The translations under genes were made by a program, and so were the position numbers. From assembly GCF_024054195.1 (NCBI RefSeq), contig NZ_JAMXLB010000001.1, positions 838,120 through 902,119 of the forward strand: DNA of 64,000 nucleotides, in the 5' to 3' direction. How positions within the stretch are numbered: the stretch's first letter is position 1; every line of letters starts with the position of its first letter. The notes below the pieces were generated by a model. The model worked only from the letters and a program-made list of their open reading frames with translations. It was not told the DNA's origin and did no database searches. Shown here piece by piece: positions 32,589 through 61,382 of the stretch. Origin of the DNA: Flavobacterium sp. NRK F7. Its GTDB lineage: Bacteria; Bacteroidota; Bacteroidia; Flavobacteriales; Flavobacteriaceae.

Positions 32589-35500
32589 ATGAAAAAAAGT
32601 AATTCGCTACACTTATATGTAGTGGCAATTGGAATGTGGCTTGGAATTTTCCAAAGCCTGTATGCACAATTCAATGAAGACGCTCCTTGGATGCAAAATT
32701 TGAATCCCGCCTCAAAAAAAGGAGAATTAACTATTAATGAAATGGTTGCTTCATTTAATCAATATTGGTTAACTCATGACAAAGAAAAAAAAGGTTCAGG
32801 ATACAAACCTTTCATGCGATGGGAATATCATTGGAGAAATAATGAACATCCAGATGGAACAATAGTAACTCCTCAAGAAATGAACGACGCATGGCAAATG
32901 AAACGAAGTCAAAAAAGCAAAAATCAAAGTGATTTAATGTGGAGAGCAAGTAATTGGCAACCCGTTGGGCCTTTTAATCATACCATTAATGGATCTTGGT
33001 CAGCTGGACAAGGAAGAGTAAATGTCGTTTATGTGGATCCAAATAATGCCAGTGTAATTTATGTGGGAACGCCAGCAGGAGGAATCTGGAAAACTACAAA
33101 TGGTGGTTCAACATGGAATCCTTTATCAGATGAATTACCGCAAATTGGGGTCTCTGGAATTGTTACAGATAAAACAAATTCAAACGTTATTTATATTGCA
33201 ACTGGTGATAAAGATGCTGGAGATACCTATTCTATTGGAGTTCTAAAGTCGACTAATGGAGGTGCAACTTGGAATACAACTGGTCTTACATTTACAAATA
33301 CTTCTACTAGAGCTGGAGATATTTATATGCACCCAAATAATTCAAATATTTTATGGGTAGCAACTAGTGTAGGTGTTTATAAAACTACAAATGGAGGAAC
33401 ATCTTGGACCAATGTTTTGTCTGGAAATATCAAGGATATTAAATTAAAACCGGGAGATCCAAATACTATCTATGCAGTTACATCTTCTGCATTCTATAAG
33501 TCAACAAATGCAGGTGATAGTTTTTCTCAAATAACTTCAGGCTTACCTACTAGTTCCGGAAGGTTAATTATAGGTGTAACTCCTGCTGACGTAAATTATG
33601 TTTATGTTTTAAGTGCCAATCCTTCTTCAAGCTCTTATACTTTTCAAGGATTATATCGTTCTACAAATAGTGGTGTTTCTTTTAGTAAAACAACAGCTAC
33701 TACTGATATTTTTGAAAGTTCTCAAGCATGGTATGATTTTGCTCTGGAAATATCGCCTACAAATGCGAATTTAATTTTTACGGGAGTATTAAACATTTGG
33801 AAAAGCTCCAATGGAGGAAGTTCTTTTACCAAAGTAAATAATTGGAGCAGTCCTACAGCATCAACATATACTCATGCAGATATTCATTTTTTAAGATATT
33901 ATGGGAATAAATTATACTGTGGAAGTGATGGGGGTATTTATGAATCTTCTGATAATGGAGTCTCTTTTACTAGTAAAACGGCTGGACTACAAATTAGTCA
34001 ATTTTATAAAATTGCGGTTTCAAAACAAACTTCTGCTAATATGGTAGGAGGTTTGCAAGATAATGGTGGTTATGGTTATAGTGGAAGCCAATGGAAGAAT
34101 TACTATGGTGCTGACGGAATGGATACAGGTGTTGATCCAAATAATAGTAACAAATTCTATGGGTTTATTCAAAGTGGAGGTGGACTATATATTTCCACAA
34201 ACGGAGGAAGTAGTTTGAGTACCTCTATAAATAAGCCTAGTGGAGAAACAGGTAATTGGGTAACACCATTAGCAATTAATGCTGCTGGACAAGTTTTTGC
34301 AGGATATAAAAAAGTATATCGTTTAAATGGTAGCTCTTGGGTGGCTGGAACCACAGCTTTTTCAACCCCAATTGAAAATGTAATAATAGATCCATCTAAC
34401 GATAATATTATGTATATTTCTGATGCAAGCAAACTTTACAAAAGTACCGATAAAGGAATTAATTTTACATTAATTTATACGTTTCCAACAACAGTAAAGA
34501 GTATTTGTGTACATACCTCGAATAATGCTATAATCTATGCAGTTACTCAAGGAACCTCTGGTCAGGTTTATCAATCTAATAATGGAGGAACTTCTTTTAC
34601 GAGTATCTCAACAGGGCTTCCTTCCATTGGTAAAAATGTAATCGTGCATCAAGGACAAGATCCTAACAATATGTTATATGTAGGAACCACTTTAGGAGTT
34701 TATCATAAAGATGATACCATGTCGTCTTGGCTACCGTTTGATACCAATCTTCCTAATGTTTCAGTTACCGATTTAGAAATCAATTATGTGGATAATAATC
34801 TTACAGCGGCAACTTATGGTCGAGGAATTTGGAGAACAGCCTTAGGAACTACCTCCGACACAACAGCGCCATCGCCCCCAACCAATTTATCTGCTTCTGG
34901 AACCACACAAACGAGTACCAATTTATCTTGGACTGCTTCCTCTGATAATGTAGCTGTTACTGGTTACGATATTTATCGTGGTTCTACTTTAATTGGTTCT
35001 TCAGCAAATACGAACTATAATGTTTCAGGTTTAACGGCAGCTACAACCTATTCTTTTAGTGTGAGAGCAAAAGATGCCGCGGGAAATATTTCGGGCTCTA
35101 GTAATACTATTTCAATTACTACTTTAAACAATACAGTAACATATTGTAATTCTACAAGTCAAAATGGTACTGAAGAATATATTGGCAGAGTTGTTTTAGG
35201 TTCTATCAATAATACTTCAACAAGTACTGCAGGTTACGAAAATTTTACGGCAATTTCAACAAATTTAACTCGTGGAATTGCTTATACCATTTCCATAACA
35301 CCAGTTTGGCCTGGACCAACCTATTCAGAAGGTTATGCAGTTTGGATTGATTATAATAAAGATGGTGACTTTCTAGACTCAGGTGAATTAGTATGGTCTC
35401 AACCTTCTTCAACTTCTAGTTCAATTTCAGGCACTTTTACCATTCCTACTTCGGCTGTTTTGGGAAGTACCCGAATGAGAGTTTCTTTGAAATATAATGG

Positions 35501-35861
35501 AATTCCATCTTCATGTGAAACGTATTCTTATGGTCAAACAGAAGATTATACAGTAAATATAACTGGTAGTTCTTCTGAACAAGGGCCTACGATGGTAGTA
35601 AATATAGATGAAATGTCAGAAAAGAATTCAATTGTTTTGAAATTATATCCTAATCCTGTGGAAAGCTATTTAAACTTAGAGATTAATGATTATAAATCAA
35701 ATCTTTATTCATATGAAATTATTAACTCTCAAGGTAAGGTAGTAAAAATGGGTCATTTGGATACGACTGGTATCGATGTTAGCAATTTAGGTACTGGCGT
35801 TTACTTCTTGAAATTAATCAAAGCTGAGATTATAATTTTTGAAGAATTTTTGAAGAAATAA
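32589..35861 (+). CDS. T9SS-secreted BNR/sortilin-like repeat protein with FN3 and GEVED domains
   Basis: A 1090-residue exported protein. A signal peptide (ends SLYAQ) is followed by a segment with GYKPFMRWEYHWRN, shared with the protein at 55371. Residues about 120-755 form a beta-propeller of Asp-box repeats (GGIWKTTNGGSTWNPLSD, VLKSTNGGATWNTTG, YKSTNAGDSFSQ and others). A fibronectin type III domain (about 757-848) and a GEVED domain (about 849-995; VWIDYNKDGDFLDSGE, YGQTEDYTVNI) follow. The C-terminus is a type A T9SS sorting domain (LKLYPNPVESYLNLEI, GVYFLKLI). It is likely a surface or secreted protein binding or cleaving polymers; no sialidase active site is clear. The 270-nt upstream gap shows only the reductase terminator. 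Confidence 0.88.
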   Translation: MKKSNSLHLYVVAIGMWLGIFQSLYAQFNEDAPWMQNLNPASKKGELTINEMVASFNQYWLTHDKEKKGSGYKPFMRWEYHWRNNEHPDGTIVTPQEMNDAWQMKRSQKSKNQSDLMWRASNWQPVGPFNHTINGSWSAGQGRVNVVYVDPNNASVIYVGTPAGGIWKTTNGGSTWNPLSDELPQIGVSGIVTDKTNSNVIYIATGDKDAGDTYSIGVLKSTNGGATWNTTGLTFTNTSTRAGDIYMHPNNSNILWVATSVGVYKTTNGGTSWTNVLSGNIKDIKLKPGDPNTIYAVTSSAFYKSTNAGDSFSQITSGLPTSSGRLIIGVTPADVNYVYVLSANPSSSSYTFQGLYRSTNSGVSFSKTTATTDIFESSQAWYDFALEISPTNANLIFTGVLNIWKSSNGGSSFTKVNNWSSPTASTYTHADIHFLRYYGNKLYCGSDGGIYESSDNGVSFTSKTAGLQISQFYKIAVSKQTSANMVGGLQDNGGYGYSGSQWKNYYGADGMDTGVDPNNSNKFYGFIQSGGGLYISTNGGSSLSTSINKPSGETGNWVTPLAINAAGQVFAGYKKVYRLNGSSWVAGTTAFSTPIENVIIDPSNDNIMYISDASKLYKSTDKGINFTLIYTFPTTVKSICVHTSNNAIIYAVTQGTSGQVYQSNNGGTSFTSISTGLPSIGKNVIVHQGQDPNNMLYVGTTLGVYHKDDTMSSWLPFDTNLPNVSVTDLEINYVDNNLTAATYGRGIWRTALGTTSDTTAPSPPTNLSASGTTQTSTNLSWTASSDNVAVTGYDIYRGSTLIGSSANTNYNVSGLTAATTYSFSVRAKDAAGNISGSSNTISITTLNNTVTYCNSTSQNGTEEYIGRVVLGSINNTSTSTAGYENFTAISTNLTRGIAYTISITPVWPGPTYSEGYAVWIDYNKDGDFLDSGELVWSQPSSTSSSISGTFTIPTSAVLGSTRMRVSLKYNGIPSSCETYSYGQTEDYTVNITGSSSEQGPTMVVNIDEMSEKNSIVLKLYPNPVESYLNLEINDYKSNLYSYEIINSQGKVVKMGHLDTTGIDVSNLGTGVYFLKLIKAEIIIFEEFLKK

Positions 35862-55370: not shown

Positions 55371-58300
55371 ATGAAAAAAATAGTGTTATTAACCTTTATT
55401 TTGAGTTCTTATTTTGCTTTTTCTCAAAATAGTTGGCAAGAATTAATGCATACTAAAGAAGCCAATTTTTTTGTCATTCAAAATGATTTTAATGTATATT
55501 ACAATCAGCATATGGTTGATTCTAAAAAAATTCCGAAAGGAAAAGGAATCAAACAATTTAAACGATGGGAATATTATTGGCAACAAAGAGTAGATGCAAA
55601 TGGAAATTTTCCAAAGAACGGTAGTGTATTAGAAGAAATCCAAAAATATAGAAACACTAAAGGTACTTACTCTAATAGAGCTACAACACCGTCTGGAAAT
55701 TGGCAAATAGTAGGTCCTGTGGCTTCTCCAAATAATGGTACAGGACAGCTTAATGGAAGTGGTCGTTTAAATTGTATCGCATTTCACCCTACAGATGCCA
55801 ATGTAATTTATGTAGGTGCTCCTTCAGGAGGCTTTTGGAAATCTATAGATAATGGAACAACTTGGGCTGAATTTTCAAGTGGATTAACGCGTTTGGGGGT
55901 CTCTTCAATTGCAATCAATCCTACAAATCCTAATATTATTTACATTGGAACAGGTGATCGGGATAGTGGTGATGCTCCAGGTTATGGAGTATGGAGAAGT
56001 TTAGATGGTGGTGTTAGTTGGAGTCCTCAGAATACAGGAATGGGGAATAGAACAGTTTATGAATTACTTATAAATCCTTTAGATCCAAATAATTTAATTG
56101 CTACTACAAATGGGAGTAGAATTTACAGAAGTACAGATGGAGGTGCCAATTGGACATTTGCATCAACAAGTACAGCAATGAAAGATATAGCTTTTAAACC
56201 TGGAGATCCAAATACCATATATGCATCAGGTACTTCCTTTGAGGTTTCTACAGATAACGGACTTTCCTTCACCCAAATTACAAGTGGCGTGCCTACAGGA
56301 ACGCAACGTATGGCTTTAGCGGTATCTGAAAATCAACCCAATTGGGTATATTTGTTAGCTGGAGGAGGTAGCGGTTTAGTAGGGATTTATCGTTCTACAG
56401 ATAGTGGTACTAGCTTTGTCGCCACAACTACAACACCCAATATTTTAGGATATCAAACCGATGGTTCTGATACAGGTAGTCAAGCCTGGTATGATTTAGT
56501 AATAGTTGCAGATCCAACAGACGCTAACGTTATCTACACTGGTGGAGTTAATCTTTGGAAATCTACTGATGGTGGTTCAACGATGAATTGTGTGTCCTAT
56601 TGGGTAGGTCCAAGTGGATTAATTGATGGTGTTCATGCCGATCAACATGCATTAGAATTTTCTCCACATACAAATAACTTATATAATGGAAATGATGGGG
56701 GAATTTATTATACAACTGATGGAGGTGTCAACTGGAAAGATATTAGTAGTGGTTTGGGAATTGCCCAAATATATAAAATAGGAGTTGCTCAAACTATAGA
56801 AAACACTGTAATTAATGGATATCAAGATAATGGTACTTCAGTTAATAGAGGTGGAATATTTACTACTGAAATTGGAGGTGATGGAATGGAGTGTATCATT
56901 GATCCAACTGATGCTAATTATATGTATGGAGCACTTTATTATGGAGATATTAGAAGATCTGCTAATGGAGGTGTCACTTTTTCTATTATCTCTGGGTCAA
57001 TATCGGAAACAGGAGCTTGGGTTACTCCTTATAAATTAGACCCTAATGAGCCAAATAGAATGTTTGCTGGATATGATAATATTTGGAGAAACGATGCTGT
57101 AAAAACAGGGACAACATGGACCCAAATTTCTAGTTTTGGAGGAACTTCAAATATCACAGATTTAGCTATTGCTCCTTCTAATAGTAATATTATGTATGTA
57201 GCTAGAAGTGCTTCAGATCGTTTTTATAGTACTACAAATGCGTTAGCTGCAACACCAACATGGACTGATTTAACTGCAAATTTACCTGTAGCGTCTACAC
57301 CAAAAGATATAGAAATTGACCCTATAGATGCAAATCATTTATTCATTGCTCTTGGAAATGATATTTATGAATCTACTAATGCTGGATTAAATTGGACAAA
57401 CATTTCAGGAACACTACCCAATATCTCATTAAATACCATTGTTATAGATTCAGGGAGTTCTGTAGCTGCAATGTATGTAGGTATGGATGTAGGAGTGTAC
57501 TATAAAGACAATACGTTGTCAGATTGGGTTTCTTATAGTTCTGGTTTAGCCAATCTCGAAATTACAGAATTAGAAATATATACGAATGCTACTGAATGTA
57601 AAAGTAAACTATATGCGGCAACTTATGGGCAAGGATTGTGGGTTTCTGATTTAAAAGATCCTGGAACAATTGCACCAACTGCTTGTTTTGCAGCAGCTAC
57701 AACTAAGGGGTGTACTGGGACAAATTTCGTCTTTGAAGACAAATCTGATTTTTCACCAACCTCTTGGTCTTGGACAATTACACCTTCCACATTTATTTAT
57801 AGTAACGGAACTTCGGCAAGCTCACAAAACCCCGAAGTTATATTTACTAATGCAGGTTTATACACTGTAGAATTAACCGTTACAAATTCAAATGGATCCA
57901 ATACCAATACAAAAATATCCTATATTGAAATTGAAGCAGGTGTAGTAGCAACTAATTTTAATGAAGATTTTGAAAGTGAAGTTTTATGTTCCGTAGCAAG
58001 TGATTGCGGAACAACAGTATGTAGCCTAACTGGTTTTTGGAATAACCTTACCAATGGAACTGAAGATAATATAGATTGGAGAGTAGATGAAGGAGGAACA
58101 CCGTCTGCTAATACTGGGCCAACTATTGACTTTAATCCTGGAACAGCAGCAGGAAATTATCTTTATCTTGAAGCATCTGGTAGCTGTAATGATCAAATCG
58201 CTATTTTAGAAAGTCAATGCATGATTGTCGATCAAGGATATGATTTTATTTTTGGTTATCATATGTATGGAACTAATACTGGGAGTCTTCATATAGATTT

Positions 58301-59519
58301 ATTTTCTGATGGATTTTGGCAGGAAGATATTATTACTTCTTTTTCAGGTGATTTAGGAAATATTTGGAATACTGCAACAGTTAACTTAAATCCATACATT
58401 GGTAAAACAATAAAAATAAGGATTAGAGGGATTATTGGTAATGGTTTTGCTTCTGATATAGCTATTGATGATATTCAATTGGTTCCTAAATGCGGAACGA
58501 CTACTACTTGGAATGGTGTAGCTTGGTCAAATGGTACGCCAACAGAAACCAATGTAGTTGTTTTAAATGGGAATTACAATACGAGTGTAAATTCAAGTTT
58601 TTCTTGTTGTACTTTGGAAATAAATTCTGGTTTCGTTTTGAACATTGAAGATTCCAATTATGTTAAAGTAGTAAATGAAATTATAAACAATGGAACTTTA
58701 AACGTAAAAAATAAGGGTTCTTTAATTCAAGTGAATGATCTAGATGCTAATGTGGGTACCATTTCTTATGAAAGAATAGCGAGTATTCGACTATTAGATT
58801 ATGTTTTTTGGTCATCACCAATCAAAGATTTTAATGTTGACGCAATTTCACCTTTAACACCTTCGGATAAAATTTTTAAATGGGAACCTCTAGTGGTGAA
58901 TCCAAATGGAGCACAAGGTTTTTGGGTCAATACTTCGTCAGAAATTATGCCTTCAGGAGTAGGGTATATTGTAAGAGGTCCGAGCGACTTTACCGCTGTT
59001 GCTCAAGATTTTACAGCTGTATTTACTAATGGAGCGCCTAATAATGGAGCTATTAAAGTGCCTATTTCTAGAGGAAGTTATACAGGACTAGATTATACAG
59101 GAACAAATGGAACAGTAATTACTCGTTTTGATGACAATTGGAATTTAATTGGAAATCCCTATCCTTCTTCTATAAATGCTTTGGATTTTTTAAATTTAAA
59201 TAGTGCTAAAATAGAAGGTGCTGTTCGTATTTGGACACATGGAACTTTACCAAGTGCAGGTAATTCAGATCCTTATTACGGGGATTATGTTTCGAATTAT
59301 TCTGTATCCGATTTTATTGTACACAATGGCACTGGAACGGTTAGCGGGCCATCAGGGTTTAACGGATTTATTGCAGGAGGTCAATCCTTTATGGTGCTTA
59401 TGAATGACGGACCCACGCTTTCTGATGAAATTGATTTTAATAATTCACTTCGAAGTGAATCGTATCTAAATAATCAGTTTTACAGATATAATACAGAAAA
59501 TGAAAAAAGTAGAATTTGA
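55371..59519 (+). CDS. T9SS-type BNR-repeat exported protein, cut short by an in-frame TGA
   Basis: A 1382-residue product. A signal peptide (ends YFAFSQ) and the KQFKRWEYYWQQR segment shared with the protein at 32589 come first. Residues about 110-765 form an Asp-box beta-propeller (GGFWKSIDNGTTWAEFSSG, IYRSTDGGANWTFAS, LWKSTDGGSTMN and others). A PKD domain (about 768-860; FVFEDKSDFSPTSWSW) and a MAM-like domain (about 868-1040; NEDFESEVLCSVASDCG, LYLEASG) follow, then a T9SS-cargo region (SYERIASIRLLDYVFWSSPI). The frame stops after EKSRI, where relatives usually read I-W-L. The missing end lies directly downstream in the same frame, so this is probably a recent nonsense mutation. Confidence 0.85.
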   Translation: MKKIVLLTFILSSYFAFSQNSWQELMHTKEANFFVIQNDFNVYYNQHMVDSKKIPKGKGIKQFKRWEYYWQQRVDANGNFPKNGSVLEEIQKYRNTKGTYSNRATTPSGNWQIVGPVASPNNGTGQLNGSGRLNCIAFHPTDANVIYVGAPSGGFWKSIDNGTTWAEFSSGLTRLGVSSIAINPTNPNIIYIGTGDRDSGDAPGYGVWRSLDGGVSWSPQNTGMGNRTVYELLINPLDPNNLIATTNGSRIYRSTDGGANWTFASTSTAMKDIAFKPGDPNTIYASGTSFEVSTDNGLSFTQITSGVPTGTQRMALAVSENQPNWVYLLAGGGSGLVGIYRSTDSGTSFVATTTTPNILGYQTDGSDTGSQAWYDLVIVADPTDANVIYTGGVNLWKSTDGGSTMNCVSYWVGPSGLIDGVHADQHALEFSPHTNNLYNGNDGGIYYTTDGGVNWKDISSGLGIAQIYKIGVAQTIENTVINGYQDNGTSVNRGGIFTTEIGGDGMECIIDPTDANYMYGALYYGDIRRSANGGVTFSIISGSISETGAWVTPYKLDPNEPNRMFAGYDNIWRNDAVKTGTTWTQISSFGGTSNITDLAIAPSNSNIMYVARSASDRFYSTTNALAATPTWTDLTANLPVASTPKDIEIDPIDANHLFIALGNDIYESTNAGLNWTNISGTLPNISLNTIVIDSGSSVAAMYVGMDVGVYYKDNTLSDWVSYSSGLANLEITELEIYTNATECKSKLYAATYGQGLWVSDLKDPGTIAPTACFAAATTKGCTGTNFVFEDKSDFSPTSWSWTITPSTFIYSNGTSASSQNPEVIFTNAGLYTVELTVTNSNGSNTNTKISYIEIEAGVVATNFNEDFESEVLCSVASDCGTTVCSLTGFWNNLTNGTEDNIDWRVDEGGTPSANTGPTIDFNPGTAAGNYLYLEASGSCNDQIAILESQCMIVDQGYDFIFGYHMYGTNTGSLHIDLFSDGFWQEDIITSFSGDLGNIWNTATVNLNPYIGKTIKIRIRGIIGNGFASDIAIDDIQLVPKCGTTTTWNGVAWSNGTPTETNVVVLNGNYNTSVNSSFSCCTLEINSGFVLNIEDSNYVKVVNEIINNGTLNVKNKGSLIQVNDLDANVGTISYERIASIRLLDYVFWSSPIKDFNVDAISPLTPSDKIFKWEPLVVNPNGAQGFWVNTSSEIMPSGVGYIVRGPSDFTAVAQDFTAVFTNGAPNNGAIKVPISRGSYTGLDYTGTNGTVITRFDDNWNLIGNPYPSSINALDFLNLNSAKIEGAVRIWTHGTLPSAGNSDPYYGDYVSNYSVSDFIVHNGTGTVSGPSGFNGFIAGGQSFMVLMNDGPTLSDEIDFNNSLRSESYLNNQFYRYNTENEKSRI

Positions 59520-60170
59520 TTAGATGTATCCAATAGTGACAATCAGTCGGATAGAACCTTAATTGGATTTGTAACTGGTGCTACTAATGATAGGGATCGA
59601 TTATATGATGCATTTACAAAAGTGGAACATAACCAGCAACGCATCTATTCTTTTGTAGGGAATGATAAAATGACAATTCAAGGTTTTGCTTTACCTTTCT
59701 CTGAAGAAATAACGATTCCAATTGGAGTAAGTATTCCAACAGCCGGAAATTATAAAATTGGTATCGCTGCAGTAGATGGTATGTTTACCAATACCCCGGT
59801 TTTTTTAGCAGATTTACTTTTAAATACAGTAACCGATATTACAAATCAGCCTTATTCTTTCTATGCTGAAGCTAATGAAATTAACAATCGTTTTGTGTTA
59901 CAATTTACCAACACCTTACTTTCAAACACAGATTTTATAGCTGATTTTAATGAAGTTGTTGTAGAAAATAATCCATTGCGAATTACGTCAAGTAGAGAAT
60001 TAATAAAAGAAATTGAAATTTATGACGTATTAGGAAGAAAACTTTTTGAAAAAAAGAATATAAATGCGTTACAAGTTGAAGGAAGTAGTTTAATACCAAC
60101 CAATAACTTAATACTAATTAAAGTGAAATTAAATTCTAATAAAACGATTGTAAAGAAAACCCTTTTTTAA
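59520..60170 (+). pseudogene. Detached 3' end of the BNR-repeat protein, carrying the T9SS sorting domain
   Basis: Directly after the TGA at 59517-59519 the same frame continues open for 216 codons to the TAA at 60168-60170. It reads LDVSNSDNQSDRTLIGFV, then GATNDRDRLYDAFTKVEH, a beta-sandwich region, and a type A T9SS sorting end (ITSSRELIKEIEIYDVLGR, KTIVKKTLF). The first possible start is a GTG at 59622. There is no promoter, leader or signal peptide, so independent function is unlikely. With the TGA read as Trp, the original gene would encode about 1599 residues. Confidence 0.8.
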
Positions 60171-60193
60171 TACAATCAATTGATAAAATATAA

Positions 60194-60236
60194 CCTAAAT
60201 AAAGTCTTGTTTTTGCAAGACTTTATTTATTTTTGA
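60194..60236 (+). terminator. Terminator upstream of bioF, overlapping its promoter
   Basis: AAATAAAGTCTTG-tttt-GCAAGACTTTATTT followed by ATTTTTG. The stem is perfect over 13 bp. The distal arm and T-run contain the -33 and -7 boxes assigned to bioF. Confidence 0.8.
60207..60235 (+). promoter_or_regulatory. bioF promoter (TTG-N18-TATTTTTG)
   Basis: TTG at 60207-60209 and an exact TAnnTTTG box at 60228-60235 lie 18 nt apart inside the terminator hairpin. Only aact separates the -7 box from the bioF ATG. Confidence 0.55.
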
Positions 60237-60239
60237 ACT

Positions 60240-61382
60240 ATGAATTTACCAAAATCATTACTTGAAAAACTTCATTTTCGTAAAGAAAATAATGCTTTAC
60301 GTGTATTAAAAAAGCAATCTCAAGGCATTGATTTTGCCAGTAATGATTATTTAGGGTTTTCCCAAAATGAAGCTATTTTTAATAAAGTGCACCAGTATTT
60401 GGCAACTAAAAAAATAATTCGAAACGGAGCTACTGGTTCTAGATTATTGTCAGGAAATCATGAAATATATTTTGAAACAGAATCTTTCATTGCTCATTTT
60501 CATCAATCAGAAGCCGCTTTAATATATAATTCGGGTTATGATGCTAATGTGGGGTTTTTTAGTGCAGTTCCGCAACGAAATGATGTTGTGCTTTATGATG
60601 AATTGTGCCATGCCTCAATTCGTGATGGAATTCAACTGAGTTTGTCTAGAGCGTATAAGTTTAAGCATAATGATTTAAGTGACTTAGAAAAACTCTTGCA
60701 ACGTTTTACTACTAGCGCTACTGAAATTTATATAGTTACTGAGTCCGTATTTTCCATGGATGGAGATAGTCCTAATATTGAAGAATTAGTCGCAATTTGT
60801 GAAAAATATAATGCATTATTAGTGATTGATGAAGCCCATGCATTAGGTGTTTTTGGTCATGAAAAAGGATGTAGTGGTGAAGGTTTAGTACAACAATACC
60901 AACTGCAGGACAAAGTTTTCGCTAGAATAATGACGTTTGGAAAAGCGTTAGGTTGTCATGGAGCTGCTATTTTAGGAAGTCAGGATTTAATAGAGTACCT
61001 CGTTAATTTTAGTAGAAGCTTAATTTATACGACTGCTCTTTCACCACATTCTGTAGCAACAATCTTAATTGCATATCAAGAATTAGCGGTTAGTCATACA
61101 ACAATAAAAAAGCTAGAAGAGAACGCAATATATTTTAATACTTATAGTTCACTCTTACAAATATCCATTTCTAATTCTTCAATAAAATCAATAGTCATTC
61201 CCGGAAATGAAAAAGTAAAAGAAATAGCTTCTTATTTGCAGGAAAATGGCTTCGATGTAAAACCCATATTATCTCCTACAGTTCCAGAAGGACAAGAAAG
61301 ACTTCGGTTTTGTTTGCATGCGTATAATACAAAAAATGAGATGGAAAAAGTAATAACGCTTCTCAAAAAGAAATTATCCTAG
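60240..61382 (+). CDS. bioF: 8-amino-7-oxononanoate synthase family enzyme (biotin synthesis)
   Basis: A 380-residue PLP enzyme of the alpha-oxoamine synthase family that condenses pimeloyl thioester with alanine. It shows ASNDYLGFSQNE, RNGATGSRLLSGNHEIYFETE, YDELCHASIRDGIQLS, the PLP-phosphate/Asp region LLVIDEAHALGVFGHEKGCSG and the Schiff-base Lys in IMTFGKALGCHGA. The placement directly before bioD and bioA makes BioF more likely than glycine C-acetyltransferase. Expression may start almost at the ATG. Confidence 0.94.
   Translation: MNLPKSLLEKLHFRKENNALRVLKKQSQGIDFASNDYLGFSQNEAIFNKVHQYLATKKIIRNGATGSRLLSGNHEIYFETESFIAHFHQSEAALIYNSGYDANVGFFSAVPQRNDVVLYDELCHASIRDGIQLSLSRAYKFKHNDLSDLEKLLQRFTTSATEIYIVTESVFSMDGDSPNIEELVAICEKYNALLVIDEAHALGVFGHEKGCSGEGLVQQYQLQDKVFARIMTFGKALGCHGAAILGSQDLIEYLVNFSRSLIYTTALSPHSVATILIAYQELAVSHTTIKKLEENAIYFNTYSSLLQISISNSSIKSIVIPGNEKVKEIASYLQENGFDVKPILSPTVPEGQERLRFCLHAYNTKNEMEKVITLLKKKLS

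Follow-up and report, generated by a model that had tools for sequence, protein, structure and literature searches.

Results

An Interrupted Gene for a Secreted Protein

The window (the whole stretch of DNA analyzed here, 64,000 nucleotides of contig NZ_JAMXLB010000001.1 of Flavobacterium sp. NRK F7) carries, at positions 55371–59519 of the forward strand, an open reading frame of 1,382 codons for a secreted protein with BNR/sortilin-like, PKD, and MAM domains. The frame opens with the ATG at 55371 and is closed by a TGA at 59517–59519, directly 3′ of codons that read ENEKSRI; the TGA stands in the place of residue 1383, which is TGG (Trp) in relatives. Past the TGA the same frame continues (59520–60170, forward strand) for 216 sense codons before it meets a TAA at 60168–60170. 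TGA is a rare stop codon in this region: among the 45 window frames tested, TAA is used by 39, TAG by four, and TGA by two, the interrupted gene included.

The start of the protein resembles a Sec signal peptide, as judged by eye only. The BNR/sortilin-Vps10 repeat region that follows (55755–57641, forward strand; approximately residues 129–757, its limits being approximate) matches PF15902 in six stretches (4.9e-25); matches to PF02012 and to NF045728 (122.4 bits against a cutoff of 175) in the same region fall under their cutoffs. A PKD domain (57672–57929, forward strand; residues 768–853; PF18911, 7.3e-09) and a MAM domain (58047–58490, forward strand; residues 893–1040; PF00629, 4.9e-20) complete the part of the protein that precedes its C-terminal module. 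The window also encodes a second sortilin/BNR cargo protein (32589–35861, 1,090 codons), whose type A sorting domain (PF18962) is intact; it shares about 37% identity with the N-terminal portion of the interrupted gene's orthologs.

At the base composition of the window, an open frame of 216 codons has a probability of about 2e-8. The open frame alone is nevertheless little proof that the two reading frames belong together, because in-frame extensions of more than 200 codons also follow two of 44 other window frames tested, and both of these are a separate neighboring gene that happens to share the frame. The intact ortholog in genome G300 aligns with the window gene in one piece, over 1,599 of 1,599 residues with a single stop, and since homology continues unbroken over the TGA, the two frames are one gene. 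We rejected a separate downstream gene as an explanation, for the only candidate, a 182-codon frame with a GTG start (59622–60170), begins within the module and aligns to the interiors of orthologs. A terminator-like hairpin lies 3′ of the old TAA (60196–60229, forward strand), and a terminator scan of 59000–60400 listed no hairpin in the interval from the TGA to the TAA; the mRNA therefore probably still spans the whole frame. The practical consequence is one for annotation: the two frames should be treated as a single broken gene, not as a gene followed by one for a small secreted protein.

The TGA Cuts a RemA/RemZ-Type Module

The last third of the full-length frame (58494–60167, forward strand) encodes a RemA/RemZ-type C-terminal module of 558 residues (1042–1599), and it is this module that the TGA cuts. 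Modules of the kind are common to many Flavobacterium proteins; we aligned 54 sequences, five of them paralogs from the same genome, and the resulting profile matches RemZ residues 575–1113 (E 1.2e-172) and RemA residues 898–1435 (E 4.5e-164). By sequence, the module is thus homologous end to end to RemZ and RemA of F. johnsoniae (PDB 8gl8 and 8gl6), in which it is intact and is joined to N-terminal parts unlike that of the window gene. At E values up to 0.001 the only fold matches in the PDB are the translocon-bound C-terminal domains (CTDs) of RemA and RemZ, over 71 columns and with a TM score to target of 0.81–0.82; these entries model the CTD only (75–76 residues), and most of the module is without a solved match. 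The column in which the stop falls holds Trp in at least 90% of the 54 modules in the alignment, where the window gene was entered as Trp by read-through. The TGA corresponds to module residue 342, within a strand formed by residues 339–346 in a predicted structure (mean pLDDT 87), and since it lies inside a β-strand of that prediction, the protein loses a folding unit as well as its export domain.

The sequence-only reading had proposed that a TGA after 1,382 codons separates the protein from a sorting domain carried by 216 further codons in frame, and the family models bear this out. Residues 162–215 of the 216-residue continuation (60003–60164, forward strand) match NF033708, the T9SS sorting signal type C, at 1.1e-12 and 47.6 bits, over the cutoff of 40, and score 16.1 bits against the type A model TIGR04183, under its cutoff of 23; a Pfam scan of the continuation gave no match. 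Neither NF033708 nor TIGR04183 matches the 1,382-residue product of standard translation at E values up to 1, and the sorting domain is accordingly found only in the sequence past the TGA. The continuation thus passes the curated cutoff of the ChiA-type (type C) signal, but it sits past a stop codon. There is also a difference of naming: the accessible text of PMC10994853 assigns the CTDs of RemA and RemZ to Type A, whereas the NCBIfam model whose cutoff the window tail clears is type C, not type A. That text describes the CTD as held in the SprA pore by SprA together with loops of PorV, and a conserved lysine of the RemZ CTD, Lys1110, as making contact with PorV. In the window gene Lys1596 aligns with it, and the codon of Lys1596 (60156–60158, forward strand) is also past the TGA. 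One part of the sequence-only reading needs correction: the sorting domain is lost, as it said, but the break does not fall ahead of that domain as at a boundary, since the cut lies in the middle of the 558-residue RemA/RemZ-like module.

T9SS and Its Other Cargo

The genome encodes the T9SS itself, on the evidence of SprA (2882.3 bits; matches in none of 14 control genomes) and a PorU-type sortase (1356.2 bits; two of 14 controls have matches, none over the cutoff). NF033708 has 29 matches in the genome, eight of them over the cutoff, and five of the 29 lie in frames shorter than 300 codons: the interrupted gene, which is over the cutoff, and four others, which are under it. In a survey for broken cargo genes, five of the 29 matches were inspected besides the interrupted gene, namely those four and one of 318 codons. 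All start with ATG and have a signal peptide of their own by eye, and for that reason they do not look like fragments. One product of this size class, a 117-codon protein at L180 (3190–3543, reverse strand), has by eye little besides its signal peptide and a domain that resembles a sorting domain, with an NF033708 match under the cutoff. The accessible text of PMC8400371 mentions a stop in gldB and, next to a type C protein, a transposon.

Relatives Carry TGG at the Stop

We found ten full-length positional orthologs that have the long module: seven from Flavobacterium (F. profundi L042, F. jejuense L043, F. tibetense L044, and those in G254, G410, G171, and G221) and three from Hanstruepera (L040, L041, and L053). 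The modules of G300 and F. profundi L042 are identical, as are those of G275 and F. tibetense L044. The codon at the stop column is TGG in all ten, so that the window gene differs from its intact orthologs by a disabling change, and no internal stop was seen in any of them. The earlier expectation that relatives would read I-W-L here was sound, for they read this or something close to it, and the orthologs run on uninterrupted. The closest comparison is with F. profundi TP390, whose ortholog (L042) is 93% identical over 1,599 residues, has Trp at residue 1383, and is without an internal stop. Its locus is also alike, with atpD–atpC upstream and BioF/BioD/BioA-like genes (so named for their Pfam class and gene order) downstream, as in the window. 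The atpD and atpC genes precede the gene in ten of ten orthologs; the BioF/BioD/BioA-like genes are directly downstream in L042, L043, G254, G410, and G221. In Hanstruepera they lie farther off or partly outside the stretch, and in the stretches examined for G171 and F. tibetense they were not found.

When all module copies are considered (64 alignment rows, less eight duplicates and one that does not reach the stop column, leaving 55 distinct rows), the column reads TGG in 53, TGA in the window gene, and AGA in one. That last is a paralog from the same genome (L008, G000:C1:3016907–3018472), which has Arg for the near-invariant Trp in a frame that is otherwise open; it is 30% identical, and its alignment at the stop column may be off. 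In a first table of homologs, at least five rows from other genomes carry internal stops among the matches listed besides the window's (G056, G001, G019, G015, and G049), so interrupted members of the broad family exist elsewhere too. A second table of homologs, which scored at most two places per genome, has no internal stop besides the window's among the matches listed.

Constraint Persists Past the TGA

For the window gene against that of F. profundi, dN/dS is 0.077 before the TGA and 0.11 past it; F. profundi and F. jejuense, both intact, give 0.131 before the stop site and 0.173 after. The dN values alone are 0.032 before the TGA and 0.057 after it for the first pair, and 0.16 and 0.33 for the second. 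Because the intact pair behaves in the same way, the higher dN past the TGA reflects the region's own pace and not decay. With F. jejuense used to polarize the changes (codons at which it differs from both others being excluded), the window branch has ten synonymous and three nonsynonymous changes past the TGA, and the F. profundi branch 11 and five past the stop site. These counts are small (13 in all for the window branch); even so, the probability of three or fewer nonsynonymous changes among 13 on a wholly neutral branch is 3e-5, and neutrality is limited to at most about 20% of the window branch. Relaxed selection past the TGA, one mark of a pseudogene, was not found. The constraint leaves three explanations: the lesion is young, it is not real, or it is read through.

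Discussion

A Probable Loss of Export in One Lineage

We think it probable, from comparison of the sequences, that one lineage has recently acquired a nonsense mutation by the change of a single base, and that one of its cargo proteins has thereby lost the T9SS export domain; on the best reading, the mutated gene is one of several T9SS cargo genes. Its intact form would encode a large BNR/sortilin-like, PKD, and MAM protein, exported by T9SS and probably exposed at the surface or released. A recent single-base change would have converted the strongly conserved Trp codon for residue 1383 to TGA, and translation should now end within a β-strand of the RemA/RemZ-type module, giving a product that would be without the rest of the module and without the terminal β-sandwich recognized by T9SS translocons. 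Since it keeps its Sec signal peptide, the truncated protein would be expected to reach the periplasm; it should not be exported, and its probable fate is degradation. The sequence-only reading had left four options open (phase-like loss, a strain-specific pseudogene, read-through, and a base-call error), and a lineage-specific inactivated copy fits best.

The main rival is a base-call or assembly error, under which the gene would be intact in the living strain. It would account at once for the lack of any sign of decay past the TGA and for a gene that is uninterrupted in the ten full-length orthologs found, and we give it a small but real chance. Against it, the assembly looks good here, the window's contig holding 3,707,909 of the 3,752,815 bases of the genome. 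Of 40 G300 frames of at least 60 codons, 27 match the window at more than 60% identity, all without a break in the alignment (the window end truncates two, and some are probably spurious overlapping frames), and the interrupted gene is the only one with a stop, the other 26 having none. A lone substitution error that yields exactly a stop should also be uncommon a priori, and we infer that the TGA base is real. A reversible, phase-like switch is extremely improbable. Surface proteins are often phase variable, but the lesion is an in-frame substitution, with the frame unchanged past the TGA. The repeats listed in 59300–60300 are short or imperfect, or belong to the terminator, and none would switch the codon; a repeat-driven switch was rejected on this ground. 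No invertible element or repeat able to switch the stop codon was seen in that interval, and the earlier suggestion of phase-like loss is not borne out.

Read-through of the UGA at a useful rate, by which the gene would yield a short product in the periplasm and a long one that is exported, would be consistent with the constraint that persists past the TGA, and UGA is the stop codon with the most read-through in the accessible text of PMC5289835. We consider it improbable nonetheless. The relatives have TGG, not TGA; the +4 base is U, which according to the same text reduces read-through in E. coli and yeast; and the RNA past the TGA folds no better than its shuffles (z −0.33), on which account an RNA element there was rejected. 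A selenocysteine or suppressor tRNA was rejected as well. The genome has no match to the tRNA-Sec model RF01852 over its cutoff, nine weaker matches being other tRNAs that ARAGORN reads as Ser, Leu, Tyr, Trp, and Glu (the search gives matches in 14 of 14 control genomes and over the cutoff in five). No UCA anticodon appears in the ARAGORN calls at 44 Rfam tRNA hits (RF00005), a search that scored 150 of 394 first-look candidates and could miss a divergent tRNA. One ARAGORN item with a two-base anticodon (L135, L139; near C1:1.72 Mb) lies outside those 44 hits. Programmed read-through is thus unlikely, the tRNAs and the RNA folding having lent this part of the sequence-only reading no positive support. 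A variant that we regard as less probable again is a leaky nonsense codon that serves as an expression throttle: the UGA would be tolerated and partly read by a near-cognate tRNA-Trp, with a small full-length fraction exported and most of the protein left in the short periplasmic form.

If the nonsense mutation is real, the gene is a natural loss-of-export allele of very recent origin, the relatives of this T9SS cargo protein having retained an export tail of some kind, and a modest example of surface-protein loss in Flavobacterium. The case looks like one gene copy lost recently and in an ordinary way, or possibly like a base-call error.

Export Tails of the Orthologs

An NCBIfam tail scan of five orthologs places the type C tails of F. 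profundi (46.7 bits) and Formosa (50.2) over the cutoff of 40 and that of LYZ1037 at it (40), with those of Xanthomarina (39.8) and Hanstruepera flava (36.9) just under. In Xanthomarina, Formosa, and LYZ1037, most of the long module is absent and the type C-like tail is kept. Six more orthologs (L046–L049, L051, and L054) have a tail that looks type A by eye, and the remaining long orthologs were judged by module alignment only, the alignments of L053 and G221 ending 7–8 residues early. Because the relatives keep their tails, the window protein, predicted to have no export tail at all, is the exception.

The orthologs (among them L045, L050, and L055 from 8001, and L046–L049, L051, and L054) have residues 1 to about 1041 in common and differ past a single joint. 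What follows the joint is the long RemA/RemZ-type module with a type C tail in Flavobacterium and Hanstruepera, the type C tail alone in Xanthomarina, Formosa, and LYZ1037, and a tail that by eye is type A-like in Kordia and others. To judge from these sequences, sorting signal and module seem to be interchangeable among the orthologs.
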